Below, piece by piece: positions 4,785-58,831 of a DNA stretch of 64,000 bases. The notes under the pieces are model-generated. The model was not told where the DNA came from. It saw only the letters and a program-made list of their open reading frames with translations, and made no database searches. Numbering within the stretch: the stretch's first letter is position 1; each line of letters opens with the position of its first letter. Location of the stretch: positions 55,933-119,932 of IMG/VR virus record IMGVR_UViG_3300035698_025127; one strand, 5' to 3'. The position numbers and the translations under genes were made by a program. The stretch comes from a virus.

Positions 4785-5004
4785 GTACACAAAGGAAGAG
4801 TTAGAGGTCATTAAAATGTGGGAATTTTTTCTTAATGACACTAGTGTTCCAGAAAAGTTATTGTATGAAAAGGCGATGGAATTGGAAAATATAATGAATG
4901 AAATGAGAAAAAATCCATGGTCGCTTTCTATTGAGCCTTTAAATGAAGTTTTTCATAAAATGCAATGTGATTTTCCAAAACAAAAAGAGGTAAATAATGA
5001 ATAA
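4777..5004 (+). CDS. Small protein, tandem paralogue A
   Basis: A 75-aa acidic helical protein beginning MNKYTKEEL. It overlaps the previous stop by 8 nt. The next gene begins MNKYTHEQL and has the same order of helices, so the two look like a tandem duplication. No function recognised. Confidence 0.65.
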   Translation: MNKYTKEELEVIKMWEFFLNDTSVPEKLLYEKAMELENIMNEMRKNPWSLSIEPLNEVFHKMQCDFPKQKEVNNE

Positions 5005-5398
5005 GTACACGCACGAACAATTGATTAATTTTGTGACAAGGTGGTCTGAAATTCTTTCAAAGTTTGACATTTCGGAAGAGCAAATAACCGAGTATGCTGT
5101 TAGATTAGAAGAAGCCGATAAACTTCCACTTAATCCTCTTGGTGAAAGTGTTAATACAATTATGAAAAAAATGTACAAAGAGCTTCCACTTCGTAGTGAT
5201 AAAAAAGTTCAAGAAATTGAGACTTCAGAAACTGAAAACTATGATTCTTTAAAACTGTTATTTGATGAGTTAGAGCAAAAACTAGAAAGCGCATTAAATA
5301 GAATTGTAAAATTAGAAACAAATTCTAATAGGTACGTTCACCCGCAAATGCGTAGGGACGGATATTGTGATGGGTTGAGGCGTAGAGGTGGGGGGTAG
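4997..5398 (+). CDS. Small protein, tandem paralogue B
   Basis: A 133-aa protein sharing its N-terminal MNKYT and first helices with the preceding 75-aa gene. It is extended by a predicted coiled coil (about residues 75-110) and a Gly/Arg-rich tail ending in RRRGGG. The tail could contact nucleic acid. It starts at ATG overlapping the upstream TAA. Function unknown. Confidence 0.65.
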   Translation: MNKYTHEQLINFVTRWSEILSKFDISEEQITEYAVRLEEADKLPLNPLGESVNTIMKKMYKELPLRSDKKVQEIETSETENYDSLKLLFDELEQKLESALNRIVKLETNSNRYVHPQMRRDGYCDGLRRRGGG

Positions 5399-31995: not shown

Positions 31996-32601
31996 ATGTG
32001 TATTATCGGACTAAAGACGATCGGGCAAGAAACCCCCTCACTTAACACACTTCGCGGCTGTTTTAATAGCAATCGCGATGGCGCAGGAATTGCCATTGTA
32101 CGAAATGATAAAGTGGAAGTTCACAAAGGATTTATGAACTGGGGAGACTTTGAAACGGCAGTAAATGTACTTCAGATTGACAAAAATGAACTTGCCATGT
32201 ATCACTTTCGTTTTGGTACTGCAGGCGAAAATAACCAGGCAAATACCCACCCTTTCCCTGTTTGGCCTGTGGACAAGACGCAATTGCGATGGACAAGTTA
32301 TACAGCAAAAGCTGCAATGTCGCATAACGGCATTATGAGCAAATACGGTGGCTATTGGAAACAAGGCAAAGTGGATGAATATTCCGACACTCAGCTTTTT
32401 GTATATGACCAGCTTCGCCACTATACCTTGGCTGACTTATATACCAATGAAACCGTCAAGGAACTCGGTACCCTTATTAATGGTGGTAACAAACTGGCAA
32501 TTATTACCGAGGATAACAAGTATATTCTCGTCAATGAACAGGCTGGAGTTTGGGACCAGGGAATGTGGTGGAGCAACCCCGGATACAAAATATACTGTTG
32601 A
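31996..32601 (+). CDS. Class II glutamine amidotransferase-like Ntn hydrolase
   Basis: A 201-aa protein beginning MCIIGLK: after loss of Met, Cys2 would be the N-terminal nucleophile of an Ntn hydrolase. Supporting segments are SNRDGAGIAI, YHFRFGTAG (the Arg/Gly of the glutamine site) and AMSHNGIM, matching the conserved HNG of GATase class II. AAAAGGAC precedes the ATG. It would release ammonia from glutamine or hydrolyse a gamma-glutamyl amide. The last five codons lie inside a 104-bp direct repeat, so the native C terminus may have been replaced. It ends in TGA. Confidence 0.75.
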   Translation: MCIIGLKTIGQETPSLNTLRGCFNSNRDGAGIAIVRNDKVEVHKGFMNWGDFETAVNVLQIDKNELAMYHFRFGTAGENNQANTHPFPVWPVDKTQLRWTSYTAKAAMSHNGIMSKYGGYWKQGKVDEYSDTQLFVYDQLRHYTLADLYTNETVKELGTLINGGNKLAIITEDNKYILVNEQAGVWDQGMWWSNPGYKIYC

Positions 32602-32688
32602 ATATATCGCCTCAGATTTTGAAATAAAGTAATATTATAAAAACCCTTGACATTCGCTGTAAAGTGTGCTATAACAAAGTCATAACTT
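32585..32688. repeat. 104-bp direct repeat, copy 1
   Basis: Identical over 104 bp to 33152-33255, spaced by 567 bp. It contains the end of a reading frame (codons for KYTVEYIASDFEIK in another frame) and a complete promoter. It overlaps the 3' end of the amidotransferase gene. Confidence 0.9.
32647..32675 (+). promoter_or_regulatory. Sigma70-type promoter in repeat copy 1
   Basis: TTGACA 32647-32652, 17-bp spacer, TATAAC 32670-32675. It drives the first of the two paralogous membrane proteins. Confidence 0.8.
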
Positions 32689-32953: not shown

Positions 32954-33199
32954 ATGTTTGACAAAAATCATTTCGACGCCCGTTCAATTGTATTGTCTAT
33001 TGCAGCAATCGCGATGTTTGCTTTTCTTTTTCATATAATTCTGTCTATCCCTACTGTATATGTTAATTCCGCCACTGGAGAAAAAGTCGGTTGTAACATA
33101 AACGGCAAACAATATGCCGCTGCTTCATTTATCTGCCAGGAGGCCGTAAAAACAAAATATACTGTTGAATATATCGCCTCAGATTTTGAAATAAAGTAA
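32954..33199 (+). CDS. Small membrane protein, 81 aa, paralogue 2
   Basis: The ATG at 32954 follows AAGGAG. Same design as the preceding gene: an N-terminal TM (about residues 14-35) and two conserved Cys. Its last 15 codons lie in the second copy of the direct repeat, and here the repeat sequence is read in a natural frame (KYTVEYIASDFEIK). This suggests copy 2 is the original. Confidence 0.65.
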   Translation: MFDKNHFDARSIVLSIAAIAMFAFLFHIILSIPTVYVNSATGEKVGCNINGKQYAAASFICQEAVKTKYTVEYIASDFEIK

Positions 33200-33255
33200 T
33201 ATTATAAAAACCCTTGACATTCGCTGTAAAGTGTGCTATAACAAAGTCATAACTT
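33152..33255. repeat. 104-bp direct repeat, copy 2
   Basis: Identical to 32585-32688. It includes the 3' end of the second paralogue and a promoter for the CCA-adding enzyme gene. Confidence 0.9.
33214..33242 (+). promoter_or_regulatory. Sigma70-type promoter in repeat copy 2
   Basis: TTGACA 33214-33219, 17-bp spacer, TATAAC 33237-33242. It drives the CCA-adding enzyme gene. Confidence 0.8.
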
Positions 33256-37030: not shown

Positions 37031-37092
37031 TGGGCCGCAAATAGCCCTAGAATCAACTCTAATCAGTTTTTTACAACAGATAAGCATAACAA

Positions 37093-40510: not shown

Positions 40511-41287
40511 TCAGAGCTTTGGTAAGCCGGATACAATCTCCAAGACGCGGGCGGGCTTTACACCACGATACAGAATCATCTCGCGATTACATTCCGCGTA
40601 ATGTACAGCCCAAGTCATAGCCTCAATATACTTTTTCCCCATTTCGGAAGCCACAGGCAAATGGTCTAAATTGCCCGTATAAATTTTCTATTCTTTGCAA
40701 TAGTCAGCAGCCTCCTTAATAAACATTTTTGCAATTCTCAAGCCAATATTTCGGCTTCCACTGTGCAACATTACCGAAAGTTTCCCATTGCTGTCTTTTT
40801 GCAATTCGATAAAGTGGTTTCCGCCACCCAAAGTACCAAGTTGCGAACGAGCTTTCTCCGGCCATTCATTATAGTCTCTATGGCCAAAGAATCCACGGAA
40901 AACCTTTTCAAATTCGTCTTCAAGCGCTTCAGGCATTTTATCCGAATGGTCGTGGCCTGCGAACCCAACAGGAACATTCAAATAGACTTCTTCGATAATT
41001 TCCTGCACATCTACCGAATCAGCGTCGAGGTCCGTCAGGGCCCACGCCATCCCGCAACCTATGTCTACCCCTACTGCAGCCGGGACAACGTTCTCACGGC
41101 AGGCCAGGACTCCACCAATGGGCATTCCCATACCGGGGTGACCGTCGGGCATCAACGCAACGTGGTGAAATGCATCGGGCAGTCGAGAAAGGTTCCCCAT
41201 TTGTTTTGCAAGGTCGGGATGACCATAATATTCATTTTCGGGAACCCAGATTTTGATGGGCACGCCACCGGCAGTATATTCAAACAT
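40511..41287 (-). pseudogene. rtcB: RNA ligase RtcB, interrupted and truncated
   Basis: The first 199 codons are clearly RtcB (tRNA-splicing/repair ligase): DGHPGMGMPIGGV, GVDIGCGM with the metal Cys, GTLGGGNHFIE and LHSGSRNIG. A TAG at 40690-40688 then interrupts the frame, yet the same frame continues for 58 codons with RtcB-like sequence (VASEMGKKYIEAMTWAVHY, ECNREM) before diverging and ending in TGA. The C-terminal part with the guanylylated His is missing. The gene is most likely inactive, unless the product serves another role. Good promoter and AAGGTAA site remain. Confidence 0.8.
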
Positions 41288-42682: not shown

Positions 42683-42711
42683 TTGACATAGAATCAACTT
42701 TGTGTTATAGT
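42683..42711 (+). promoter_or_regulatory. Sigma70-type promoter of the small-gene array
   Basis: TTGACA 42683-42688, 17-bp spacer, TATAGT 42706-42711. It drives the first run of array genes and overlaps a divergent minus-strand promoter. Confidence 0.8.
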
Positions 42712-42729: not shown

Positions 42730-43098
42730 ATGAAATTGATAAGATTTTACATTAGAAAACCAAACGGAACTTTGCTAAATGGATTTCGGGTAAAGGGGCC
42801 AGAGTGTCCGATACTAAATACCTTACTTTATATTGATTGTTTAATGGGGGTGGGAGGACTATCCTTTGACGAATCGGCTCGACATGCTATGACAAAGATT
42901 AGTCGTGCATATGTTTATATAGCATTATATAAATTACCCGGCAATTATAAATTGTTTCAAGATATATTTAAAGGGATTACAGATACAGAAATAAAGTTAA
43001 CGAAAAAATATAAGAAAAGATACGGACATATAATGCGTAACATAATACATAATACATGGTCTTGGTCCCTGAAAATGTCCTATTTAGCACGCCAATAG
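42730..43098 (+). CDS. Array protein 1, 122 aa
   Basis: The ATG at 42730 follows AGGAGA. Architecture of the array family: a short strand region first (KLIRFYIRKPNGTLL), then a helix (ILNTLLYIDCLM), a second helix and a basic tail. Function unknown. Confidence 0.62.
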   Translation: MKLIRFYIRKPNGTLLNGFRVKGPECPILNTLLYIDCLMGVGGLSFDESARHAMTKISRAYVYIALYKLPGNYKLFQDIFKGITDTEIKLTKKYKKRYGHIMRNIIHNTWSWSLKMSYLARQ

Positions 43099-43122
43099 AC
43101 TACAAAACTAGAAAGAAGCTTC

Positions 43123-43608
43123 ATGAACTTTAGAAATAATTTCTATAAAATGCCGGATAGCTCGACTGTTACTACAGGCGTTATTGTGCCGGGGTTGACA
43201 TATCTAAATGCTTTTATTTTGATCGAAATGATAATGGCACGTGACCATTCTCTGGAATATTCAGTAAAATATGCTCGCAGATATTTTGCAAGAATCAATA
43301 TGTATAAAGCATTGTGTAAATTCGATGATCACCCGGATATACTAGACTATTTAACTAATAACATGGATCCTTTTGTACAGTACCGTTGCATAAAAGAACA
43401 CAAAGAATTATTTGACAATATGGTTTCTGAAATACAAACCCATGCGGATAAAATGGCGCTTAATCGTTTGCTCATGAAAATGAATAATCTTAGAGAATCA
43501 AGCTCATATTATTATACTGCAGGTACATGTGGAACAACAATGGCAACAATACCGACAACAACATCAATTACTTCAGATACAATAATAACTAATAATAGGT
43601 ATAGATAA
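43123..43608 (+). CDS. Array protein 2, 161 aa
   Basis: Begins with a polar N terminus, then the family helix (LNAFILIEMIMARDHSLEYSV) and a second helical unit. The C terminus is Thr/Tyr-rich and low complexity. It overlaps the next ATG by 1 nt. Function unknown. Confidence 0.6.
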   Translation: MNFRNNFYKMPDSSTVTTGVIVPGLTYLNAFILIEMIMARDHSLEYSVKYARRYFARINMYKALCKFDDHPDILDYLTNNMDPFVQYRCIKEHKELFDNMVSEIQTHADKMALNRLLMKMNNLRESSSYYYTAGTCGTTMATIPTTTSITSDTIITNNRYR

Positions 43609-43958
43609 TGTTAGATTTAAGTATTTATGACAAATACGAGACTATACCGTGGCGCATATTATGTTTATTGGCACAATATGACCAAAATATTGATAAACTA
43701 CTGTCAATTCCCGATCTTATAAACTATTTATATGCACAGAATATTCATTATTCCATGATTTTTATTTTTTTGGGCATTTTTCGTCAAGATATTAGAAATT
43801 ATATTATCGCAACAGAGGATTATGAATATTTATTTTCCAATGTAAATGGTACCTGGGCGCCAGTAGTCAGACAATACTGGAAGACATATGTGCGAATAAA
43901 TATTGAAGCTGATACTGGTTTGCCACTAGTTGATTTAGACTATTTAGGGGGGATTTAA
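43608..43958 (+). CDS. Array protein 3, 116 aa
   Basis: Coupled at TAATG. Helical family core IPWRILCLLAQYDQNIDKLL, then IPDLINYLY. Acidic with many aromatic residues. No known family. Confidence 0.6.
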   Translation: MLDLSIYDKYETIPWRILCLLAQYDQNIDKLLSIPDLINYLYAQNIHYSMIFIFLGIFRQDIRNYIIATEDYEYLFSNVNGTWAPVVRQYWKTYVRINIEADTGLPLVDLDYLGGI

Positions 43959-44314
43959 TGTCAATATCTGACATGAGAATGGAAATGATACGCAAAGTAA
44001 AGTGGATAGATATATATTTATCTGACGATGCGCCACCAAGAAGTTTTCAAAAACTTTATGATACCTTAGATATATGTTATTTGTTATTTGCGTTTGATGT
44101 TTTAGACAGAGAAGATTATCCTCGCTCTCTTATCGTTGACATTATAACTACTTATCTTTTAGTTCAGCCGATATTGGCTCATTTTATCTTTGCAGAATGC
44201 TTTGAGCTAATAAGTATTGATGAAATTAAGAATATTGATCCTTTTGATTCAAGTTGTGACGATCAAATTGATCTTTTTCGGAAATATTTATGTGAGGTAA
44301 ACGGTGTTACGTGA
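43958..44314 (+). CDS. Array protein 4, 118 aa
   Basis: Coupled at TAATG. The core LYDTLDICYLLFAFDVL, then YPRSLIVDIITTYL repeats the helix-pair pattern of its neighbours. It ends in TGA inside the next gene's start. Function unknown. Confidence 0.6.
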   Translation: MSISDMRMEMIRKVKWIDIYLSDDAPPRSFQKLYDTLDICYLLFAFDVLDREDYPRSLIVDIITTYLLVQPILAHFIFAECFELISIDEIKNIDPFDSSCDDQIDLFRKYLCEVNGVT

Positions 44315-44657
44315 AATGTGTCCGATAATAGTTGAATCACGTCATTCCGTTGGCGAATATTTACAATATACGCATGCATTTGAAATACTCTATATAATGG
44401 ATCATTTAATTGATATATACGGGTATACAGAGAGTCTTGAAAAGTGTTTTTATTATACGGAAAATATTCATCCCAGAATCCTCTGCAAAGCCTTTATGGG
44501 ACTATTGCCAGACCTTGAATATACTTTGCTAGATAAGCCCTTTGCGAATACGCTAGAAAATGTTATTCAACTTAAATCAAGCAATCTTATCTGGAGTATC
44601 GGATATAAAATTATATCTAAATTAGACAAGGAACTAGATAATGCCAAACCTATTTAA
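44304..44657 (+). CDS. Array protein 5, 117 aa
   Basis: A GTG start after TGAGGTAA, overlapping the previous gene by 11 nt. The core FEILYIMDHLIDIYGYTESL, then a second helical unit. Function unknown. Confidence 0.58.
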   Translation: MLREMCPIIVESRHSVGEYLQYTHAFEILYIMDHLIDIYGYTESLEKCFYYTENIHPRILCKAFMGLLPDLEYTLLDKPFANTLENVIQLKSSNLIWSIGYKIISKLDKELDNAKPI

Positions 44658-44961
44658 TGTTCCCTTTTGTTATGCATATCCTCCTGATGAACGCAATATG
44701 TGTGCACAAATTAGCGAGTATTTAACACGCGAAATATTCCCAAACTGGGAAGTTTCAAGCCCTCTTAGAGATCAACACCATATTATATTAAGAATATTAA
44801 TAGCATATAATTACCTCAAAGAACAGAAATTTTCAGCAAACGACATAATATACTATATACTTCGTCAGGAAAATCACACAACTAACACAAAAGAATTGCT
44901 ATATTTTACTATAGGTACAATAGACCGCGAAATATGTTTAGACTTGAAAAAAACAATATAA
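44641..44961 (+). CDS. Array protein 6, 106 aa
   Basis: The segment ILRILIAYNYLKEQKFSANDI, then IYYILRQENHTTNTKELLY matches array protein 9 (ILRILLAYEYLMTKNYPPEVI, then VNYIIYQEKSSNNIYEIIY) closely enough to show a gene duplication. It overlaps the preceding gene by 17 nt. Confidence 0.65.
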   Translation: MPNLFNVPFCYAYPPDERNMCAQISEYLTREIFPNWEVSSPLRDQHHIILRILIAYNYLKEQKFSANDIIYYILRQENHTTNTKELLYFTIGTIDREICLDLKKTI

Positions 44962-45063
44962 CACACTTTTCTTACAAAAATTTACTATTTAACGAAAGGC
45001 GATGTATTAGTATATTTCGTCAAATAAGTATGGATATAAGTCTACATGACCAATTGGAGAGAT

Positions 45064-45555
45064 ATGAATAATATAGAAATAGAACGACGTTTTTTTGTCA
45101 AAAATGGTATTTTGCGCAAAGAAGATTGCCCATTTTATTTTGAAATAATACAAGGTTATATAGGTACTATACAAGATATAGACAAAATAGTCAGAATACG
45201 CAAAACTTTAATGTATTGTGGCGACAAAATACATGAAAATTCTTATTTAACAATAAAGGGTGACAAAATAAACGGCAAAGGGTACGAACTCGAAACGCGA
45301 ATACTTGACAATGTAGACGATTTTTTCAAATTATGCCCAAAAGGGACTATTTTGTCAAAAACTCGGCTAATTGTACCATATAAAAACAGACATTTTGAAG
45401 TGGATTTATTTCATGGCAAATACGAAAATTTAATAATAGCCGAAATAGAGCTAGATGATATTAATGAAGACGTCGAACTGCCGTCATGGATAGGCCAAGA
45501 AATAACAAATAATAAACGATTCTCTAACTATAATCTAGCAATGGCACAAAAATGA
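45064..45555 (+). CDS. CYTH-domain triphosphate tunnel enzyme
   Basis: A 163-aa protein. The ATG at 45064 follows TTGGAGAG. Family signature near the N terminus: IEIERRFFV, an ExExR in place of ExExK (Glu5, Glu7). Tunnel strands with paired basic and acidic residues follow: VRIRK, YLTIKGD, YELETRI, LSKTRLIV, FEVDLF and IAEIELDD. CYTH enzymes cut inorganic or nucleoside triphosphates or make cAMP (class IV cyclase). The active role here is unknown; a nucleotide-signal function is possible. It interrupts the array of small genes. Confidence 0.8.
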   Translation: MNNIEIERRFFVKNGILRKEDCPFYFEIIQGYIGTIQDIDKIVRIRKTLMYCGDKIHENSYLTIKGDKINGKGYELETRILDNVDDFFKLCPKGTILSKTRLIVPYKNRHFEVDLFHGKYENLIIAEIELDDINEDVELPSWIGQEITNNKRFSNYNLAMAQK

Positions 45556-46049
45556 ATATAACTTTTCAACCATTATATGATATATGCCCAGCAGGTGAAG
45601 TTATAGGACTTGAACTTATATTGCCAGGCTCCTTTACGCGCGACATATCAGGGGAAAGATTATGGATATTTAACGAACTAAATGACATAACATTACAATA
45701 TAAAATCCATCCAAACGTACCAATAAGGACAGCATTCTCTATTTACGAAAAAATACCAAATACTTATAATGTGCTAGTAATGTTTGAAACACTAATAAGT
45801 TATGGGTATACAACACAAAACGCAATAAGATTTCTACAGAAATATATGCACCCAGTATCAATATATATAGCATTACATGCAATAGTAAATGAATACCTAC
45901 TATATAATGTCAAAAAGGATGTCCCATCTGCCTGCATGAACAAAAATTCGAGAGCAATCTATAGACGAGACCACCACTCAATTGTAAATAGATACGGAAT
46001 GCACAACGACCTGCGAAAAATTGCTAATAAAAGAGCGCTAAACAAATAA
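45552..46049 (+). CDS. Array protein 8, 165 aa
   Basis: Overlaps the CYTH stop by 4 nt (ATGA). A beta-rich N-terminal half is followed by the family helix pair (YNVLVMFETLISYGYTTQNA, then IRFLQKYMHPV) and a basic tail. Function unknown. Confidence 0.6.
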   Translation: MNITFQPLYDICPAGEVIGLELILPGSFTRDISGERLWIFNELNDITLQYKIHPNVPIRTAFSIYEKIPNTYNVLVMFETLISYGYTTQNAIRFLQKYMHPVSIYIALHAIVNEYLLYNVKKDVPSACMNKNSRAIYRRDHHSIVNRYGMHNDLRKIANKRALNK

Positions 46050-46060
46050 GGATGCAAATA

Positions 46061-46447
46061 ATGTCAAGCGACATATACCGCCTAAAACAAATAACTAAGA
46101 AATGCCTGCAAAATAATCAATTCATCAACTTTATGATCCCAGACATAAAATCTTACCACATGAAATTTATACTAAGAATATTACTGGCTTATGAATACTT
46201 AATGACTAAAAACTATCCGCCCGAAGTAATAGTAAACTATATAATTTATCAGGAAAAAAGTTCGAATAATATATACGAAATAATATACCACACTATAAGA
46301 CAAATAAATAATGAAGTAAAACAATATTTACTAGATAATTATACAATACGAAGCAAAAAATATCTTGAATATCATATACGTCAACCCATCATACAACTTA
46401 ACAGTATAATTGGATTAATCATACATAACACCATTCATCACAAATAA
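46061..46447 (+). CDS. Array protein 9, 128 aa
   Basis: ATG at 46061 after AAGGA. Paralogue of array protein 6, with an added basic and hydrophobic C-terminal extension. It ends the first run of array genes. Confidence 0.62.
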   Translation: MSSDIYRLKQITKKCLQNNQFINFMIPDIKSYHMKFILRILLAYEYLMTKNYPPEVIVNYIIYQEKSSNNIYEIIYHTIRQINNEVKQYLLDNYTIRSKKYLEYHIRQPIIQLNSIIGLIIHNTIHHK

Positions 46448-46518
46448 AAATTGACCCCCCCTCCGCAGTGTGGGAAAAATCGTTTGTTATTTGTAGGTAC
46501 CATGTATAGCATCATATA

Positions 46519-46561
46519 CCGACTTATGGTCCGACTTATGGTCCGACTTATGATCTGACTT
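46519..46561 (+). repeat. Tandem 12-bp repeats
   Basis: CCGACTTATGGT is present twice in perfect tandem (46519-46542), a third copy with one change follows (46543-46554), and a partial fourth to 46561. They lie about 75 bp upstream of the -35 box at 46636. The 46448-46688 gap otherwise holds only the promoter. Confidence 0.85.
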
Positions 46562-46635
46562 GATTGAAAACGAAACTCGGAAAAAGAGACAAAAAAAAGT
46601 CCTTTCAAAAAAAATTCTGGGAAATTTTTTTAGAC

Positions 46636-46664
46636 TTGACATTTTTCTTGTTTTGTGTTATACT
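46636..46664 (+). promoter_or_regulatory. Sigma70-type promoter
   Basis: TTGACA 46636-46641, 17-bp spacer, TATACT 46659-46664. It drives the membrane-anchored array protein. Confidence 0.8.
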
Positions 46665-46688
46665 AGTTATAACTTGAAAGGAATATTT

Positions 46689-47156
46689 ATGGTAGAATTT
46701 TTTATGATGCTCGGCGCGGTTATGCTCCTATATGTCGGCATAATACTATTTTCAATTGTATTTTTAATAATCATAAACTTTATAGCGCGCCTTGAAGCGA
46801 ACAAAAAAAGATACATTTATTTGTGCAATAGCAAACTAATTATTACTGACCATTGGTTTAAGAGACCACTTTTTTATACTGGCAAGCGTATTCATTGGCC
46901 TAAATTACATGCTAACAGCCAAGAGCAATTAGTATTTACGTTTGTTCATTTAATGGAATTCGGCATAGATTATTTTATAGACCATTTAATGGGCAGAAAA
47001 ACAGCATATTTTATGATTGGCGGGATTAATATTAATATTGGCAACTATATAACAAGATATAGTCAATATCATTATGCTAGTTATCTAGTATGTTATTCCA
47101 AACTAAATAATATTTTAGCTAATCTGGAAAAGGAATCGGAATATGATATTATATAG
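46689..47156 (+). CDS. Membrane-anchored array protein, 155 aa
   Basis: The ATG at 46689 follows GAAAGGA; the in-frame upstream ATG at 46560 is before the promoter. One or two N-terminal TM segments (residues 4-34), then a basic soluble part with a helix (LVFTFVHLMEFGIDYFIDHLM) similar to the array family core. It may be a membrane-bound member. Confidence 0.6.
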   Translation: MVEFFMMLGAVMLLYVGIILFSIVFLIIINFIARLEANKKRYIYLCNSKLIITDHWFKRPLFYTGKRIHWPKLHANSQEQLVFTFVHLMEFGIDYFIDHLMGRKTAYFMIGGININIGNYITRYSQYHYASYLVCYSKLNNILANLEKESEYDII

Positions 47157-47727
47157 CATAAAAAAACCTTTTGGGGAGCCGGTCATACAACGATGTTACA
47201 AATATTTTAACTTTGTGAAATTCATGGCTTTTTTGGGTCTTGTAAGGTATGTAAATGTCTTATATCCGTTCCCTGACGGCACGAAACATGTAAAAAATAA
47301 CAAAGAAATTAGGGCATATATGGTCTATTATGCTTTATTATATGAAAAATTTGACAGACGTTCCATTATTGAATTTCTTATTGTTTGGAATAATTTCGTA
47401 TATTATGATCCTTATTTGATATCGAACTTATATTACAATATAGGCGCATTCGATGTGAAATTTAAGACTGCATTTGAAGAAGTCGTGGGTGGAGACACTT
47501 ATTTACGAACTATTTTACGTTCTTTTCATTTTTCAGAACATAGTTATTTGTGCGCACAATCCAAAATAGTGCGAGAAATTATGACTGAATGTGAAATGCC
47601 GTATCATATGTCACGCTTACAAATAAATTTGTATCTCTTCTGTTGCGAACAGGAAAAAAAGACTGGTTCGAGTGGAGTAGGCGACAGAATTCTGATAGAT
47701 TTCCTTATTATGGCAAAGAAAAAATGA
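47143..47727 (+). CDS. Array protein 11, 194 aa
   Basis: Overlaps the upstream gene by 14 nt. N-terminal strand (ILYSIKKPFGEP), then family helices (AYMVYYALLYEKFDRRSIIE). Longer than its neighbours because of a basic C-terminal region. Function unknown. Confidence 0.6.
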   Translation: MILYSIKKPFGEPVIQRCYKYFNFVKFMAFLGLVRYVNVLYPFPDGTKHVKNNKEIRAYMVYYALLYEKFDRRSIIEFLIVWNNFVYYDPYLISNLYYNIGAFDVKFKTAFEEVVGGDTYLRTILRSFHFSEHSYLCAQSKIVREIMTECEMPYHMSRLQINLYLFCCEQEKKTGSSGVGDRILIDFLIMAKKK

Positions 47728-47734
47728 TTTTTTC

Positions 47735-47763
47735 TTGACAAATGAGTGACTATGTGCTATAGT
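47735..47763 (+). promoter_or_regulatory. Sigma70-type promoter
   Basis: TTGACA 47735-47740, 17-bp spacer, TATAGT 47758-47763. It drives array proteins 12-14. Confidence 0.8.
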
Positions 47764-47804
47764 ATTTATATTGAGAAGAATCTAAACTAACAAAGGACTA
47801 TTAA

Positions 47805-48275
47805 ATGTCAAGATACATAGAATTTACAAGATTGGGGCGCATTGAGGAAACTGACGAATGCATTTTAAATAAATACTCGTATGATCCCAATGTTGATCCG
47901 TGTAAACGATGCATGTTAGTTAATCCATTTACATATATTATTAGGCCTACTGCTCCAGACATGTTTTCTATGGAACATACAGTTGGTAAATCAGGTCATA
48001 AACTTGACTTACTTATTATGTTAGAAAAAATACTTACAAAATTGCCAGAGCACCAAGGTTTTGACAATTTAAGTGTGGTAAATTTTTTCTGCAATCGACT
48101 TGTACGAAGCGCCTCACTTACACGATACGTGGTATATGATTGGCTAGGCTTACTAATGGCAGATGTTAAACATTTTTGTTTTTATGGGGATGAACCAACT
48201 AAATATTATTCTGCTATCGCAAACGAAACAAAAAATTATTTGTCTTTGCTAGATCAGAGGAACATAAAAAAATGA
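47805..48275 (+). CDS. Array protein 12, 156 aa
   Basis: The ATG follows AAAGGAC. A polar N-terminal half with CKRCM, then the family helix pair (LDLLIMLEKILTKLPE, then LSVVNFFCNRLV). Overlaps the next start by 4 nt (ATGA). Function unknown. Confidence 0.6.
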   Translation: MSRYIEFTRLGRIEETDECILNKYSYDPNVDPCKRCMLVNPFTYIIRPTAPDMFSMEHTVGKSGHKLDLLIMLEKILTKLPEHQGFDNLSVVNFFCNRLVRSASLTRYVVYDWLGLLMADVKHFCFYGDEPTKYYSAIANETKNYLSLLDQRNIKK

Positions 48276-48604
48276 ATAACAAAAAAATAATCACAATAAT
48301 GAATAATACCTTTTTAGTTCCCGATATTAAACTCGATTTAGACGGAATTAGGTCGATATTTGACAGACAAGGATTTAATCCAAACATCAAATTGCTTATG
48401 TTATTAGATGTTTTTTTGACCGCAACGAATGACGATGAAAAAAAGGTAACAACTTTAATTGCTTCGACTTGCGGAATTGCGAACTTGCAGATCGCAGATA
48501 TAATTAAAACACTAAAAGGGAAAAAAATGAATATGTACTATAACCGTGACTCGTGGCCCATATTTTTTGCTATTAGTGACTATATAAAGGAAATAGAATT
48601 ATGA
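48272..48604 (+). CDS. Array protein 13, 110 aa
   Basis: Coupled at ATGA. Short strand region, then IKLLMLLDVFLTATNDDEKK, then ANLQIADIIKTLK, the helix pair seen through the array. Coupled to the next gene by 4-nt overlap. Confidence 0.6.
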   Translation: MNNKKIITIMNNTFLVPDIKLDLDGIRSIFDRQGFNPNIKLLMLLDVFLTATNDDEKKVTTLIASTCGIANLQIADIIKTLKGKKMNMYYNRDSWPIFFAISDYIKEIEL

Positions 48605-48990
48605 TTGAAACACTTCAACACGCAAAAGAAAATCCAAGTAATCTTTATGTAGTTGTGACTGCAAGAAATAACATTATTAACTATGTAACTTCAGCAGGTT
48701 CTTCAATTAAACTTGAACTATCGAAAATGAATGTCGTATATCCAGTACTTACAGATAATATCAACTGTGCTAATTCGTATTTACTAGATGTATTATTTAT
48801 ACTTTTGTTTTTAGTAGAACGTCCAACGTTACGCAATCAAGCTATTGCAGAAAAAATATTATGTAACCCAAACAGTTTGAGTGTGCGAGGATATAGCTTT
48901 GCAATAACAAGATTTAACTTGTATGCAGAAAAGTTTTACGATATTGATGATTTTTGTTCCCATGTTTTGAAAGGAAAAAAACTTAGATAA
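48601..48990 (+). CDS. Array protein 14, 129 aa
   Basis: Coupled at ATGA. N-terminal strands (LYVVVTARNNIINYV), then the helix pair (YLLDVLFILLFLVERPTLR, then NQAIAEKIL). Ends in TAA just before a 176-bp structured gap. Confidence 0.6.
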   Translation: MIETLQHAKENPSNLYVVVTARNNIINYVTSAGSSIKLELSKMNVVYPVLTDNINCANSYLLDVLFILLFLVERPTLRNQAIAEKILCNPNSLSVRGYSFAITRFNLYAEKFYDIDDFCSHVLKGKKLR

Positions 48991-49166
48991 TGGACAAGAA
49001 ATGCTAGTTATTTTAAGCAACAAACATCGGGCTGTCACGGGCCCATGAAATACCTTATGTATTTTGAGGCTTTAGCGCACTTAGAGGTAAAGGTAGTGAA
49101 ATAGCCCTTTGGGGTTAGGCCCATTTCCGCCGTCAATTTGTAATTATTAGTAAATAAGGAGAATAC
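48991..49166 (+). other. Gene-free gap with possible RNA structure
   Basis: No ORF. The sequence is locally GC-richer and offers pairings such as GGGCT..CAC with GTG..AGCCC and GGGCC with GGCCC, plus ATACCTTATGTAT. It could be a leader or structured RNA for the following genes; no named RNA family is recognised. No clear promoter. Confidence 0.35.
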
Positions 49167-49601
49167 ATGAAACATTACTATATAAAAAGTATGCCTGACG
49201 GCAGTATAAGATCCGTATCTAACTATAAATACGACAAAAGTTCATATTATATTGTAAAAAAAATCTCCCGTCTTTATGGTGCATTTAAGGCAAAACATTA
49301 TGATCTTAATTATGTCCCTAATTTACTTGAAATATTAACATGGGTAGAACAAACCATAGAATTTTGTCCAATGGGCAAACAATTGAATTTTCTTAATTCG
49401 ATTGGATATGATATAGCTTATCTTGTGAATATTTTGAGTGTTTTGTTTCCCCGAGAAGCTCTTATGATTTCTCAATCGCATATGAATTATTTTAATGAGG
49501 CTATACTAATAAGGTGGGAATCTTCTCTTTTTGTATATCATAACAAGATATTATGCGATATAAAAGAGGATATAGAATGGCGTTTAGGAGAAAGTTCATG
49601 A
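49167..49601 (+). CDS. Array protein 15, 144 aa
   Basis: The ATG follows AAGGAGA. N terminus MKHYYIKSMPDGSIRSVS is typical of the second half of the array (Tyr-rich strand, Asp-Gly turn). Then LLEILTWVEQTIEFC, LNFLNSIGYDIAYLVNILS. A close paralogue follows in an interrupted form. Confidence 0.65.
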   Translation: MKHYYIKSMPDGSIRSVSNYKYDKSSYYIVKKISRLYGAFKAKHYDLNYVPNLLEILTWVEQTIEFCPMGKQLNFLNSIGYDIAYLVNILSVLFPREALMISQSHMNYFNEAILIRWESSLFVYHNKILCDIKEDIEWRLGESS

Positions 49602-50059
49602 ATTATTACTATATAGTGAGTGCTCGTGCATATGGTTTAGTAAAAATAACTCAGTATGAACCCGACTTTGGCAGTGATTATATTGTAACAAAGATAATTA
49701 ATCTTCGTGATGCATTCCGTTCAATAAAATCTGATATGTGAGTTCCAGCCGACTTAATAATTTTATTATCACTTATAGAACAGACGACGTCAATATTTTC
49801 ACCCAATCGGCAAATGCATTTTCTTAGTTCGATGGGATATGAAAAAACATATGTTATAAATATTTTGAGTATTTTATTCCCTATTGACGACCTTTATCTT
49901 ACTAGTGATGAAAAACATTCACTTGCGAAATACAAAGGCGAGGTGGAGCCTTTTAATCTTTTAGATATATACAATAAAATGCTACATAATATAAAGAATG
50001 ATATAAAATGGAATACAGCAATGTCAAACTGGAATAATTGGGTTAAAAATCGAAAATAA
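49598..50059 (+). pseudogene. Array protein 16, interrupted by in-frame TGA
   Basis: Starts at ATG 49598 after TAGGAGA (MNYYYIVSARAYGLVKIT). TGA at 49739-49741 stops the frame after 47 codons. The same frame then continues with sequence matching the preceding paralogue (LIILLSLIEQTT; MHFLSSMGYEKTYVINILS) up to 50059. It is a recent nonsense mutation, or less likely a readthrough site. An ATG at 49814 might start an N-terminally short form. Confidence 0.75.
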
Positions 50060-50062
50060 TAC

Positions 50063-50091
50063 TTGACATATTGCGTTTTTTATGTTATTAT
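50063..50091 (+). promoter_or_regulatory. Sigma70-type promoter, duplicated type
   Basis: TTGACA 50063-50068, 17-bp spacer, TATTAT 50086-50091, followed by CATAATGAGTTGTTTA. Nearly the same unit recurs at 51735. Confidence 0.78.
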
Positions 50092-50140
50092 GATCATAAT
50101 GAGTTGTTTATGTTAAAAAAACGCAATAAAAGGTTAATTT

Positions 50141-50281
50141 ATGAGGAAAGTGGTTTTATATCGAAACGAGAATGCGGAGAATATCGGAAAACGTCTAAAG
50201 TTTTTTCTGACCCCGGCAGAAGATGGGGGCATTGAAGGTTGGGGCCTTATTAAAAGCTCCCATATGGGTTTATTATGTTAA
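50141..50281 (+). CDS. Small ORF of the array, 46 aa
   Basis: ATG 9 nt after AAAAGG. Product begins RKVVLYRNENAENIGKRLK and is basic. It overlaps the next gene's ATG by 7 nt, so it could be a leader that couples translation. It may alternatively be a real small protein. Confidence 0.5.
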   Translation: MRKVVLYRNENAENIGKRLKFFLTPAEDGGIEGWGLIKSSHMGLLC

Positions 50282-50796
50282 TTTATGCATATCGAAACAG
50301 CTTGACCAATAAAATACTCTTTTCTGGTTATTCGCCAGTTAATGGGTTTAAACGCGTGTCCCCGGGTTTACCACTCATTGGGGCAAAAAGATTTGGAAAT
50401 TCCCACCTTAATCATATATTAGACTTTCTAATTCGATATAACACATATTGTAATTATTTGACAGATAACGAACTAATAAATTATTTTGTAGAAAACCATA
50501 CTTATGTATGTGGCCCCGATGTTAGGTCATATAATAGAAATTCTTTGGAAATTATACTTATGGAAATAAAGGCCGGCCGTGTTCTGCCGCCTTCAGAGGG
50601 AGGAGATATGCAATTTCGAGATAGTTCGCCTCTTGTTAAATCATACCGAATTTTACATTATATTCGTATACTGTTACAACAAATAATGGGCTCGGATAGA
50701 CATGAATGCATTAAAGTACGCTATATAAACGACGATACCAAAGAAGGATGGGTAATTATTCGTAAAAATAAAAGTGGCAATGCATTTAATGAATAA
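50275..50796 (+). CDS. Array protein 18, 173 aa
   Basis: N terminus MLIYAYRNSLTNKILFSG is shared with array proteins 20 and 22. The helix core is LNHILDFLIRYNTYCNYLTD, then NELINYFVEN. The C terminus is basic. Function unknown. Confidence 0.62.
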   Translation: MLIYAYRNSLTNKILFSGYSPVNGFKRVSPGLPLIGAKRFGNSHLNHILDFLIRYNTYCNYLTDNELINYFVENHTYVCGPDVRSYNRNSLEIILMEIKAGRVLPPSEGGDMQFRDSSPLVKSYRILHYIRILLQQIMGSDRHECIKVRYINDDTKEGWVIIRKNKSGNAFNE

Positions 50797-51223
50797 TTTT
50801 TACTATATAAAAAGATTTGAAGACGGCAGCATGAGTAGGCCCGAACAACATCGCCCTGACAGTTTTAATCAACAAGTGGGTTTATATCTATTTACAATAG
50901 AAAAAATACCCATAATCCACTGTTTTTATGCTGATGCTGATTTTGATACTGGTGATGAAAGAGCCTCTTGTGCTTTTCTGGAATTGCTAACATGGATAGA
51001 ACTCACAATGTCATTCTCTAATCCTCGAGTGCAGATGACTTTTCTTGTCCATAAAATCGGTTTTGATAGGCATTGTATTGTTAGGATACTAGAGGCCTTA
51101 TTTCCCGGTCAAAATAGTATAGCCCTTGAATCACTTGAATATGCAAAAGATCGCAGCGGCATATCAAATGACCTCGCCAATGCATTAAATGATTTTAAAC
51201 AAATAATTGAAAAGCGAAGTTAA
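50789..51223 (+). CDS. Array protein 19, 144 aa
   Basis: I chose the ATG at 50789 because the product then begins MNNFYYIKRFEDGSMSRPE like its paralogues; a GTG at 50774 is possible. Core FLELLTWIELTMSF, then MTFLVHKIGFDRHCIVRIL is very similar to array protein 15, and both are 144 aa long. Confidence 0.63.
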   Translation: MNNFYYIKRFEDGSMSRPEQHRPDSFNQQVGLYLFTIEKIPIIHCFYADADFDTGDERASCAFLELLTWIELTMSFSNPRVQMTFLVHKIGFDRHCIVRILEALFPGQNSIALESLEYAKDRSGISNDLANALNDFKQIIEKRS

Positions 51224-51225
51224 AA

Positions 51226-51729
51226 ATGCTAATATATATATATAGAAGAACCAATAGCGAAATATTTGTTTCAAAAAGTCAGCCACACGTTCTTACATCG
51301 TCGTCAAAAACAAAATTTGTTTGTTCAATCCCATATATCTCAAAAATAACTCATAGTGGCATGTCACAAATATTAATCTTTTTGATATGGTACGAATTAT
51401 TAAGAAATACCTGTACTGATTATGAAATTATTAATATGTTTACCAGAATAATTGATACTATACCCGACCACGACAAAAATTTTACCCAATTCACCCTAGG
51501 ACAAATAATTTATAACATAAAAAACCCTCACCCCCCTCACAGAATTTATTCGAAACAAGAGACGCTCGAAAGTATAAAATTTAATAAATCATATTGCTAT
51601 TTAGACTTTACTAATATAACTTTAAGACAAGTATACGGGCTCGAAAGGAATGGGGTGCCGTTTATTCATAAAGGCGAAAATTATCTCTGGCAGGTAGGGT
51701 TTACGGAATATCCACACTATAGCGTATAA
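51226..51729 (+). CDS. Array protein 20, 167 aa
   Basis: N terminus MLIYIYRRTNSEIFVSKSQ, core SQILIFLIWYELLRNTCTDY, then EIINMFTRI: same layout as array protein 18. C-terminal region is aromatic-rich. Ends just before a promoter. Confidence 0.62.
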   Translation: MLIYIYRRTNSEIFVSKSQPHVLTSSSKTKFVCSIPYISKITHSGMSQILIFLIWYELLRNTCTDYEIINMFTRIIDTIPDHDKNFTQFTLGQIIYNIKNPHPPHRIYSKQETLESIKFNKSYCYLDFTNITLRQVYGLERNGVPFIHKGENYLWQVGFTEYPHYSV

Positions 51730-51734
51730 AATAC

Positions 51735-51763
51735 TTGACATATTGCAAGTTTTATGCTATTAT
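51735..51763 (+). promoter_or_regulatory. Sigma70-type promoter, duplicated type
   Basis: TTGACA 51735-51740, 17-bp spacer, TATTAT 51758-51763, then CATAATGAGTTGTTTA as at 50063. It drives the last run of array genes. Confidence 0.78.
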
Positions 51764-51811
51764 AGTTTCATAATGAGTTGTTTAATGTAATAATTGTGAA
51801 AAGGCACTTAA

Positions 51812-52153
51812 ATGCATTATGTTTGGTTAAAAAACGACAGAATTCAATTAAATCATAGTAATTCTATAAGGCCGCCTAATTCTGTTCTTCTTGTTAAATC
51901 AACAGAAAGCATTTCGAGAAATGATATTCTTTTTCAGGTTCTTACATATTTCGAGTGTCTTTTTGGTAATTTTTCACAAAAACAAATTACCCGTTTTTTT
52001 GATGAAACTTCGGGATATCACAAAACATTTATAACTAATGCATTATTGCCAAGTGTTCTGGGCCGTGTTCGCGAAGGGGTATTACTTACTTCAAAATATG
52101 ACAACAATATATTAGTAAAAGCAAGGCTTGAAATAGAAAGGTATCTGGGATAA
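51812..52153 (+). CDS. Array protein 21, 113 aa
   Basis: N terminus MHYVWLKNDRIQLNHS, core LFQVLTYFECLFGNFSQKQ, then ITRFFDE. The stop overlaps an ATG (TAATG) that I take as the true start of the next gene. Confidence 0.62.
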   Translation: MHYVWLKNDRIQLNHSNSIRPPNSVLLVKSTESISRNDILFQVLTYFECLFGNFSQKQITRFFDETSGYHKTFITNALLPSVLGRVREGVLLTSKYDNNILVKARLEIERYLG

Positions 52154-52555
52154 TGTTGATATTTGTTGATAAAAAAACCAATAACATTGGGTTTTCAAGT
52201 TATTCTGGGGTTTGGGCAAGACCCATCATATCCCAAGCTCGAATGGCCTGCAATTCAAGGTACTGATATAAAAGACCAAGATGATATAGCTATAAAAATA
52301 ATACTTGTATTAAGCTTTTATGAATTTATTAGTGAACATTTTCCCGAAGAAATGGCACTTCGTTCACTAAAATGTAATCATGATGAGCATTTTGTCTATA
52401 AAGTATTTTCACTTATAGATGACAGTTTGGCAGAACGTTTCATGTATAACAATGAAGTCGGATGTGAGTCTAATCGCGAAATAAGATTTTCAGCTTCTAA
52501 CCAAGTAAAGTTATTAAAAATAATAAGAAAAATAATGAGGAATTTATCATTATGA
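52153..52555 (+). pseudogene. Array protein 22, apparently frameshifted
   Basis: The ATG at 52153 is coupled to the previous stop and encodes MLIFVDKKTNNIGFSSYSG, which matches the N termini of array proteins 18 and 20. That frame soon ends. The frame open from TTG 52163 carries the family core (AIKIILVLSFYEFISEHFPEE). The two halves join with a +1 shift near the GGGG run at 52207-52210. It is either a decayed gene, a recoding site, or a sequence error. Confidence 0.65.
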
Positions 52556-52920
52556 GCAAAATATATTTATCGAAAAATAACAGGATTCATGTACGAATGA
52601 AGCCAACAAATATATGTGGCCCCGTATTCGATTGGCCCCATCTTCGCATTATTGGCTGTCTAGCAACAGAATGGACATTTCACATTTTAAGAGGCTATGA
52701 ATTTATTAGTAAAAAATTTTCTGAGGAATGTGCCTTTCATTTTTTAACACGCACGTATGGATTTTTCCAGTCGGCGAAAATCTTCACGATTGTTGATATG
52801 AATGTTGCTCATAGATTTAGTTTGTTTCACAACGCGCAATTACCCATACTTGTACTTGGAAACAAAGATTTAAAAATTCAAGCTATAATTAAAGACATTA
52901 GGATGAATTTAAATGCATAA
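52552..52920 (+). CDS. Array protein 23, 122 aa
   Basis: Coupled by ATGA. N terminus SKIYLSKNNRIHVRMKP, core WTFHILRGYEFISKKFSEEC, then AFHFLTRTYGF, closely resembling the core of array protein 22. Function unknown. Confidence 0.63.
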   Translation: MSKIYLSKNNRIHVRMKPTNICGPVFDWPHLRIIGCLATEWTFHILRGYEFISKKFSEECAFHFLTRTYGFFQSAKIFTIVDMNVAHRFSLFHNAQLPILVLGNKDLKIQAIIKDIRMNLNA

Positions 52921-53350
52921 ACGTATGAGAGCATATGCAAGACACAACCCCCATACCAACCGGGACGAAATTCATTTTGGGAGACACGATGACAAAGAAC
53001 CGAACCATCGGATCCCCGGCACTCCCATAGTTGATTGGGTTAAATTTCGCATTAGTACAAATTCGTGTACTTGCGAACATACATTAAAATTGCTTATGTT
53101 TTACGACATACTAATTAGTAATTTCCCTGAATACTTGGTATTTGAAAGTATATATCTTAATATTGGATTTAAATACGCATTTTCTATTTTAGGACCTCTT
53201 TCCCGTATTGATTCATCTATTGCCTGTAGATTCTTCGATACAACTCAAGGTAAACACATGTTAGAAAGTTATGACCCTTATGATATTTTGCCGGGCTATT
53301 CCCATTATATAAGAAATATTATACAAGATATAGAAAACAGAATATTATGA
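52913..53350 (+). CDS. Array protein 24, 145 aa
   Basis: Overlaps the previous gene by 8 nt. His/Arg-rich N-terminal strand region, then LKLLMFYDILISNFPEYLVF. A final helix ends in a basic tail. Overlaps the next start. Confidence 0.62.
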   Translation: MHKRMRAYARHNPHTNRDEIHFGRHDDKEPNHRIPGTPIVDWVKFRISTNSCTCEHTLKLLMFYDILISNFPEYLVFESIYLNIGFKYAFSILGPLSRIDSSIACRFFDTTQGKHMLESYDPYDILPGYSHYIRNIIQDIENRIL

Positions 53351-53766
53351 TGTATTATTATGTTTTGAATACAAATGGCAATCTTAAAGTGAGTGCAACA
53401 AAACCGCCGATATCAGAAAATTATGTGACATTGCCTGTAAGGCTAAACCGTGCCAATTTAATAAAAAATATCGAAACAAAGCAAGCACGGCGTATTGCCG
53501 GAAAATCTCCAGATAATGATAATACCTGGCAAATGGTTATATTATTACTTGCATGTTCCGACTTATTAGGTGATAATTTTTCGCTGGAAAACATTGCTAA
53601 TTATCTAAATAAAGAGTGTTGTTTAAGAAATAGTTTTGTCGAAATGATAATAAAAACAGCATTACAAGAGGAATATATAGTAAAAGCGGATATACAATGT
53701 GAATTTGACATAAAATGGCAGAATAAAATTATGGAACAAGTTGCTCGAATAGAGGAAAATATTTAA
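53347..53766 (+). CDS. Array protein 25, 139 aa
   Basis: ATGATG start overlapping the previous stop. N terminus MMYYYVLNTNGNLKVSATK, core WQMVILLLACSDLLGDNFSL, then ENIANYLN. Coupled to a final truncated member by TAATG. Confidence 0.62.
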   Translation: MMYYYVLNTNGNLKVSATKPPISENYVTLPVRLNRANLIKNIETKQARRIAGKSPDNDNTWQMVILLLACSDLLGDNFSLENIANYLNKECCLRNSFVEMIIKTALQEEYIVKADIQCEFDIKWQNKIMEQVARIEENI

Positions 53767-53885
53767 TGTATTATTGCTATATTCTAATTAGGAGCAAACA
53801 AAATATATCGAAGTCCCAACTGGTAATATCTGTATTGCCTTGTGGGAATTGTGATGATGGTGCTTGCCCATGCAGCAGTGTATAA
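53766..53885 (+). pseudogene. Truncated last array member, 39 aa
   Basis: Starts at a coupled ATG with the family N terminus (MYYCYILIRSKQNISKS) but stops after 39 codons with a Cys-rich end (CGNCDDGACPC). The helix core is missing. The 53886-54055 stretch after it carries only short inverted repeats (for example GGCCACAA/TTGTGGCC) and no gene. Confidence 0.55.
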
Positions 53886-54055
53886 AATGCTCAATAATGG
53901 GCCACAAATAGCCCTTGTGGCCACGAGTACTGTATTAGGCATACTATCACCATGTCGGCCCTGGCTGGCGCCCCGACCTGTTTTGTATTTGCCATTACTC
54001 AGTGCAAATTGATGGGACACGTTTTTGATAATACGGATACAGACGAATTTTTTTC

Positions 54056-56322: not shown

Positions 56323-57321
56323 ATGAACGACATTGCAAAAAAAATTATCCCTTATACCTCCAACCTGATGGAAGATTTAACTTTCGGTGTTGAGCTTGAA
56401 ATTTGTCTCCCCCGCAGTGCTAACCTTCGCGACATGATGAAGGATGCCGGCATCCCAAGAAACAAATTTAATTCCACTGCAGATTATAGCAGCCAGGACT
56501 ATGATATATGGCAGGCCAAAAACGATTGCAGCCTGTCTTGTTCCTCCGGCTTTTTCAATATCGAAATTGTAAGCCCCGTCCTTTCCGGTACTGCTGACAT
56601 TGAACTTGTCAAAAAAGTTATCGTATCCATCAAAAAATTCGGCGGTGAAGTTAATGAAACTTGCGGCGTTCATATCCATATCGGTTTTGACGGTCTTGTC
56701 AAACCCGGCAAGTCATTTAACGCGCCGGAACGCACCGCCCTTGTAAACAACCTTGCAGACATTACAGCGGAATTTGATCAGTCTCTTATGCTCATGGTTG
56801 AGCGGGACCGCTGGAGTCAGGCTTGCTGCAGACGCTACAAAGACTATTCGGAACACGAGACTTACGATATGAATCATCAACGCAGTAAACTTGCCTCCAG
56901 AGATTGTGCAGTTGCTTTCGGTTCTCACTCTCAGATTATCAACGCGAAACGTTTCCTGTCTAACTTCGAAAACAAACGAACCATTGAATTTCGCCTCTTG
57001 GAAGGCTGCCTTGACGAAAACAAAGTTGCTGCTTGGATCTGGTTCTGCCAGCGGTTTCTCCATCGTGCATTTAGCACCAAAGTTCGCGCAATCGGCCGCA
57101 CTCGCAAATTTACTGACCTTCTGAGCTTCCTGCGCTGTGACCGTGCCGACGAAAAACGCGGTTTTGATCGCAACGAAACTACCAAGGGTTATGTGGACTG
57201 CCTTCGCAAACTTGCCAAAAAACACAACAGTAGCAAAACCCCTTATTATCGCGCACATTGCAACTTCCACAACTATGTGCGCCCGCCCAAAGCAATGATA
57301 ATCAAAAATCTTGCAGCATAA
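56323..57321 (+). CDS. Amidoligase_2 family enzyme, copy 1
   Basis: A 332-aa putative COOH-NH2 ligase of the glutamine synthetase/GCS fold. Signature segments: FGVELEICLP (residues 21-30) with metal-binding Glu, CGVHIHIGF (about 114-122), and TIEFRLLEGCLDE (220-232). Such enzymes are predicted to join an amino group to a glutamate or aspartate carboxyl using ATP. GAAAGGAAC precedes the ATG. A second paralogue lies downstream, and GGCT and GATase-like genes lie at 30.6-32.6 kb. Codon use is like that of a well-expressed gene. Confidence 0.82.
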   Translation: MNDIAKKIIPYTSNLMEDLTFGVELEICLPRSANLRDMMKDAGIPRNKFNSTADYSSQDYDIWQAKNDCSLSCSSGFFNIEIVSPVLSGTADIELVKKVIVSIKKFGGEVNETCGVHIHIGFDGLVKPGKSFNAPERTALVNNLADITAEFDQSLMLMVERDRWSQACCRRYKDYSEHETYDMNHQRSKLASRDCAVAFGSHSQIINAKRFLSNFENKRTIEFRLLEGCLDENKVAAWIWFCQRFLHRAFSTKVRAIGRTRKFTDLLSFLRCDRADEKRGFDRNETTKGYVDCLRKLAKKHNSSKTPYYRAHCNFHNYVRPPKAMIIKNLAA

Positions 57322-57853: not shown

Positions 57854-58831
57854 TTGACAACATACTGGCAAGACTATACGCCCAATTTTATGGAAGATGT
57901 TGGGTTTGGTATTGAAATTGAATGTTTTATTCCGGACACAACAACAAAACGGGCTGTTCTGGAAAACGCAGGCATTGCGCCTGAAGATATTCATGACCGC
58001 TATGGCAATTACAATAAGTGGCAACTCGAAACCGATTGTAGTTTGAATTCAAAAAGAGGTTTTCTTAACACCGAATTTGTAAGCCCCGTCTTGCACGGTC
58101 AAGAAGGTCTCGAACTTGTTCGTAAGGTAATCCGCTCCATTAAAGAATCTGGCGGAGTTGTAACTAAAAGGTGTGGAATTCATGTCCATTATGGGTTCAA
58201 AGATTTTTTAAACCCCGGCATCGACACACCAATTAAAACTTCAGAGCGGGTGAAAATTTCGAACAATGTTGCAAACATGTTTACCGAATTTGACCAGTCA
58301 TTTATGCTTATTGTTGCTAAGCATCGTAGCGAAGACTGTCATTATTGTACACGCAAAAAAGACTATTGCGAAGCGGATGGCAAAAGGGCCATTGATAACG
58401 CACAAAAACACTTTGAAAGTGACCGGTATGTTGCGGCCCATACTTCTCACGGCTGGGCCCTGAACCTCTATGCCCTTACTAATTGGTCTTGTACCCGTCC
58501 AACTGTTGAATTTCGTCTCCTGGAAAACTGTCTTGATGAAGACAAAATCGTCACATGGATCTGGCTTTGCCAAAGGTTTCTCCACCGGGCTCTTACCCAT
58601 TCCACAAAGAAGTGCACTCGTACCCGCAAATTTTCAGAACTGATCAAATTTTTGGATTGCACATACAGCAATAAAAATAGAAATGAACAGACCGCCGGAT
58701 TTGTAAATTATTTAAACAGAATGGCAAAAAAGCGTAGTTCAAGAGAACATCCATACAATGTTCCCCATTGCCATTTTGCAAACTATATCCGCCCCAAGAA
58801 ATTCCGAACCATTAGAAGCGAAAGTTGTTAA
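57854..58831 (+). CDS. Amidoligase_2 family enzyme, copy 2
   Basis: A 325-aa paralogue of the enzyme at 56323. TTG start after ACGGAG. Key segments: FGIEIECFIP (18-27), CGIHVHYGF (about 108-115), and TVEFRLLENCLDE. The C-terminal helix WIWLCQRFLHRA is nearly the same in both copies, but the substrate-facing middle parts differ, so the two could act on different substrates or form a heteromer. It overlaps the next gene by 7 nt. Confidence 0.82.
   Translation: MTTYWQDYTPNFMEDVGFGIEIECFIPDTTTKRAVLENAGIAPEDIHDRYGNYNKWQLETDCSLNSKRGFLNTEFVSPVLHGQEGLELVRKVIRSIKESGGVVTKRCGIHVHYGFKDFLNPGIDTPIKTSERVKISNNVANMFTEFDQSFMLIVAKHRSEDCHYCTRKKDYCEADGKRAIDNAQKHFESDRYVAAHTSHGWALNLYALTNWSCTRPTVEFRLLENCLDEDKIVTWIWLCQRFLHRALTHSTKKCTRTRKFSELIKFLDCTYSNKNRNEQTAGFVNYLNRMAKKRSSREHPYNVPHCHFANYIRPKKFRTIRSESC

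Follow-up and report, generated by a model that had tools for sequence, protein, structure and literature searches.

Do the small, closely packed genes between positions 42730 and 53766 of this viral DNA descend from one ancestor, and what might their products do for the virus? The stretch analysed (64,000 nt, referred to as the window) covers the right-hand part of a 119,932-base record of an uncultivated virus. Its large terminase finds its best match, at about 35%, among T4-like phages, e.g., Flavobacterium phage immuto. Among the matches listed in IMG/VR, the nearest terminases of uncultivated viruses are 34-38% identical, and one short record is the same as the large terminase gene of this virus; closer relatives may lie beyond that list. 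Terminase, helicase, RecA-like and other phage genes are present in the genome by eye. From the closeness of the terminase and this gene set, the virus is classed as a distant T4-like myovirus.

Here, we observe 24 closely packed plus-strand genes, 22 of which encode small orphan proteins; 10.2 of the 11.0 kb of this array are coding. The open reading frames and coordinates of the initial annotation are correct, and its overlaps of 1-17 nt between adjacent genes are seen within operons. It had also spoken of about two dozen apparently paralogous proteins. This seems to hold for most, but not for the CYTH-domain protein and the membrane protein. Genes and promoters, with their standing in the candidate family and the evidence for it, are as follows.

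42683-42711, plus strand: strong sigma-70 promoter, TTGACA-17-TATAGT with extended -10 TG; array start
42730-43098, plus: g01, member, 122 aa; hairpin and helices; in-register links to g21, g02 and g08; low-confidence AF2 model
43123-43608, plus: g02, member, 161 aa; links to g08 and g01
43608-43958, plus: g03, probable member, 116 aa; without hairpin; motif and register tests
43958-44314, plus: g04, probable member, 118 aa; profile-profile comparison, register, profile merging
44304-44657, plus: g05, possible member, 117 aa; GTG start; motif score among the best 2% of controls, at the common register
44641-44961, plus: g06, member, 106 aa; close paralog of g09
45064-45555, plus: CYTH-domain protein, non-member; Pfam PF01928, E 5e-6
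45552-46049, plus: g08, member, 165 aa; motif, profile-profile comparison, register
46061-46447, plus: g09, member, 128 aa; close paralog of g06
46636-46664, plus: strong sigma-70 promoter with TG
46689-47156, plus: membrane protein, non-member; hydrophobic N-terminus by eye; no Pfam match
47143-47727, plus: g11, small helical protein, 194 aa; layout by eye only; no significant link (motif, HMMER, register)
47735-47763, plus: strong sigma-70 promoter with TG
47805-48275, plus: g12, 156 aa; one in-register profile link to g22-24, absent from the unsupervised register
48272-48604, plus: g13, 110 aa; equal or higher motif score in 6% of controls
48601-48990, plus: g14, 129 aa; no significant link (motif, HMMER)
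49167-49601, plus: g15, member, 144 aa; paralog of g16 and g19
49598-50059, plus: g16, broken member; in-frame TGA at codon 48 (49739-49741)
50063-50091, plus: strong promoter; promoter and leader duplicated at 51735
50275-50796, plus: g18, member, 173 aa; paralog of g20
50789-51223, plus: g19, member, 144 aa; paralog of g15/g16
51226-51729, plus: g20, member, 167 aa; paralog of g18
51735-51763, plus: strong promoter; copy of that at 50063
51812-52153, plus: g21, member, 113 aa; profile-profile comparison, HMMER leave-group-out, register
52153-52555, plus: g22, member, apparently broken; ATG at 52153, body open from 52163
52552-52920, plus: g23, member, 122 aa; paralog of g22/g24
52913-53350, plus: g24, member, 145 aa; AF2 model, pLDDT 65
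53347-53766, plus: g25, member, 139 aa; linked to g06/g09

The closest relationships are clear. The paralog groups named by the initial annotation show 24-34% identity and E values from 1e-4 to 1e-11 and, in one case, 2e-14 (blastp, phmmer), and all are true paralogs: g06/g09 (E 1e-10), g15/g19 (E 4e-10), g15/g16 in the C-terminal part (E 2e-14), g18/g20 (E 6e-8), and g22/g23 (E 2e-7 from 52163), with g24 as the third of this group. At the same threshold, paralog groups in four compared phages, two of them partly sampled, hold at most three members. The broken members reported earlier are real in the case of g16 and apparent in that of g22. The ATG of the latter was most likely placed correctly and overlaps the stop of g21 (TAATG), which couples the two genes. 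The frame from this ATG encodes MLIFVDKKTNNIGFSSYSGV before it runs into a stop, and the next frame is the one in which the body stays open. With N-terminus and body in different frames, a frameshift appears to have broken g22, the alternatives being slippage, a start at a TTG further downstream or an error in the assembly. Only g15 and the broken g16 have a measurable dS below 1, with a dN/dS of 0.72 (interval 0.42-1.1). Since dS is at or near saturation in all other pairs, rapid evolution of the array is suggested only. Of the fast-diversifying family that had been proposed, the diverging family is supported by the common register described below, early promoters, broken members and the lack of a database match, whereas the speed rests mainly on the g15/g16 ratio and the absence of relatives.

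Beyond these pairs, two readings compete: a single family, or several unrelated small families of two or three tandem duplicates each, whose layout is a generic Ile/Leu/Tyr-rich helical look. For the latter speaks that HMMER passes only the pairs and one triple. Standard iteration from each pair recruited nothing beyond the pairs, and in leave-group-out searches only g24 and g21 reached an E below 0.05. Tandem duplicates of two or three are also found in related phages, and the composition of the array is biased to I, L, Y and N. Against unrelated families, 16 groups scored higher with one another than with 60 control phage proteins in profile-profile comparison (P 3e-7). Because of the composition bias, the comparison was repeated with reversed (P 0.0016) and column-shuffled groups (P 1.4e-4); the P values are guides, since the pairs are not independent. 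Hence composition-matched nulls are exceeded, and the links fall in one register, with 10 of the 20 top links sharing it against a null mean of 1.6. Two single links across groups point in the same direction, namely that of g16 to g24 across the C-terminal half (E 0.005) and the weak match of the g22 N-terminus to g18 (E 0.43) and g20 (E 0.16), which begins at residue 1.

The register itself was examined by an unsupervised test, in which a single offset for each protein has to satisfy all pairwise alignments. The array reached a weight of 141, compared to 72-100 in 12 null sets and 72-97 in eight of nine neighbour-gene windows of related phages. The ninth reached 220 and holds a recent duplicate pair; such pairs were collapsed in the array. 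In nine of 15 groups the unguided offsets coincide, within 5 residues, with the ILxxLxxYExL helix recognised by eye. The common register was recovered for 12 proteins (g01, g02, g03, g04, g08, g21, g25, g06/09 and g22-24) and not for g05, g11-g14, g15/19 and g18/20. A position matrix from 11 paired or C-terminal members, applied to the ten others, ranked four of them (g01, g03, g05, g08) with the best 2% of controls and located the motif where it was expected. With their own group left out, g15, g18, g19 and g20 fell in the top 4%. This test is not fully independent, since all sequences were visible when the alignment was drawn up by eye. High single scores (at least 18) show a slight excess, seven in the array and two to five in neighbour windows. 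Agglomerative profile merging gave two groups (4 and 6 nodes) with scores slightly above shuffles. An unsupervised two-block Gibbs motif search with one member per group showed no excess over shuffles, which marks either a limit of the method or weak similarity.

Taken as a whole, homology beyond the pairs is statistically supported, though in the twilight zone, and so is the placement of one core helix in one register in most members. The comparisons support a single family, which by our own estimate counts at least 12 and probably 16-17 proteins. A lack of links beyond the close pairs, which the initial annotation had named as evidence against a family, is what HMMER gave and not what profile-profile comparison gave; therefore the unity of all two dozen is not proven. 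Unrelated families are, in our judgement, doubtful, yet a serious contender. Outside the array, a 133-aa protein (4997-5398) carries the array helix motif at 21 bits, above every other control, and is possibly a distant family member or a chance match.

The layout first described, a Tyr-rich hairpin start followed by helices, holds in part. The hairpin start is enriched and the core helix is shared by most proteins, but the hairpin is not universal. At least two aromatics at residues 3-7 occur in nine of 21 array proteins and in 7% of controls, and the Tyr-rich start is absent from the proteins beginning at 43608, 43958, 44304, 44641 and 46061. The AF2 model of g24, built with six array relatives, is weak (pLDDT 65) and shows a hairpin of two strands, a third, short strand and four or five helices. 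A disjoint alignment for g01 gives a hairpin and then helices in the same order of elements as g24, at low confidence (pLDDT 45). The family layout is thus modelled as an N-terminal beta-hairpin and about four helices. A Foldseek comparison with PDB and with viral models retrieved no similar fold. Within the paired set there is a recurrent C-terminal helix motif, its score inflated by the close paralogs in that set. With charges from -11 to +14, the array proteins have no common chemistry that would hint at a ligand.

Near-consensus sigma-70 promoters with extended -10 lie ahead of five array gene groups (at 42683, 46636, 47735, 50063 and 51735), in good agreement with the repeated promoters noted before, and also recur in this genome part. 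The window contains five exact instances of TTGACA-17-TATAGT, and 100 shuffles produced none. Between the copies at 50063 and 51735, identity is 83% along 41 nt and 85% in a leader block of 26 nt. Promoters of this type suggest that the array is expressed early. Both copied leaders (50099-50116 and 51773-51790) contain a five-codon mini-ORF, MSCLC and MSCLM, respectively, and three to four tandem 12-nt units (ATGGTCCGACTT) lie at 46514-46561, upstream of the 46636 promoter.

Repeats and duplicates are also seen elsewhere in the window. Two promoters (32647-32681 and 33214-33248) are identical together with their upstream DNA over about 88 bases (about 32601-32688 and 33168-33255). Downstream of them lie small membrane-type paralogs (32707, 32954) and a gene that by eye resembles a CCA-adding enzyme (33277); a third paralog of 32954 is located in the left genome part (genome 17228-17584). 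Tandem Amidoligase_2 genes, 42% identical, occupy 56323-57321 and 57890-58831 (Pfam E 2.5e-18 and 3e-21). At 37032-37048 and 53899-53915 lie two nearly identical copies of a 17-nt element, GGGCC(A/G)CAAATAGCCCT, with similar translated surroundings; it is possibly a repeated stem-loop. On the minus strand, the RtcB RNA ligase gene (40688-41287) covers no more than the N-terminal half of its Pfam profile (positions 1-207 of 426) and therefore looks truncated.

Searches of Pfam, NCBIfam, PHROGs and PADLOC, a collection of defence proteins, gave no convincing match to any of the 22 orphan proteins; with the PDB and viral folds added, this agrees with the earlier remark that no named family fits. 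Isolated matches on different members to phrog_9725 (E 0.002), GajB (E 0.002) and Cas8b (E 0.003) were regarded as chance. Relatives were found neither in IMG/VR by pattern scans with array or flanking genes, nor in GTDB genomes by pattern scan, a method that reaches fairly close relatives only, nor in phage records by tblastn. A 21-row profile found no relative, and one weak match in 24 terminase-related records was rejected as antisense in a structural-gene region. An Rfam search found nothing. As far as these searches reach, the protein family is new, and so is a takeover-like cassette built mostly from one scaffold. Gene-family expansion of this sort is known in phages.

We favour, at a probability of roughly one half, a lineage-specific tandem expansion of one small protein in an early cassette that serves as a host-takeover or counter-defence module. 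One ancestral protein, an N-terminal beta-hairpin with a bundle of about four helices, would have been duplicated in tandem in the early region. Host RNA polymerase would transcribe the array right after phage entry, and the proteins may then bind different host proteins, one scaffold having been copied and retargeted. A takeover or counter-defence function is inferred from context, and the role in conflict with the host proposed initially (decoys, inhibitors) is plausible only by analogy. More specifically, the array might be a private diversifying binder set, in which an orphan fold was duplicated about 20 times in the early cassette and its copies were retargeted to different host defence or takeover targets under constant birth and death; we hold this to be rather unlikely.

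It is improbable that the array consists largely of duplicate DNA, decaying or nearly neutral, and retains few functional genes: two members are broken and the dN/dS of g15/g16 would fit, but 20 of the 22 candidate ORFs are open and closely packed with 4-nt couplings, strong promoters are kept, and phages usually lose useless DNA. Least credible are DNA-binding regulators with a helix-(F-S-x-x-x-I)-helix core acting as a helix-turn-helix (HTH) for temporal control, since the slightly HTH-like F(S/T)xxxIxxY step in the sequences and the expansion of Myb-type HTH factors in phage G (PMC7824862) are set against the lack of an HTH hit in Pfam and of an HTH fold in PDB, several strongly acidic members (g04 -11, g03 -6) and a single residue between helices 2 and 3 in the model.

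The favoured expansion in an early cassette can be compared with three known systems. The host-takeover module of Bacillus phage SPO1 comprises 26 small early genes in about 12 kb, arranged in several operons with strong early promoters (PMC6873191). The array likewise combines about two dozen clustered small genes with strong promoters, its early timing being read from promoter type; unlike the SPO1 genes, its members mostly appear to be paralogs of one family, and no relation between the two was seen via PHROGs or Pfam. In the early anti-defence regulon of the Sulfolobus virus SIRV2, diverse small early genes, with Acr paralogs in one genome, follow a copied strong promoter (PMC11065993). 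The array resembles it in that small, probably early genes follow a repeated strong promoter, whereas the promoters and hosts of SIRV2 are archaeal and those of the array are of the bacterial sigma-70 type, not one per gene. Bacillus phage G carries a zinc-ribbon expansion of about 35 copies (PMC7824862), likewise a small protein that multiplied in a lineage-specific manner within a single large phage genome. Zinc ribbons have paired CxxC, while the array proteins have no Pfam match and no paired CxxC ligands in their sequences; by eye, a single CxxC occurs in g12 only.

Host-takeover and counter-defence genes of phages are usually sets of unrelated orphans. A one-scaffold array, if true, would show duplication and retargeting as an origin of such gene sets, and would offer about 20 candidate host-directed proteins in one genome for joint screening. 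Register coherence within an array, as used here, can recover families below the reach of standard HMM search.
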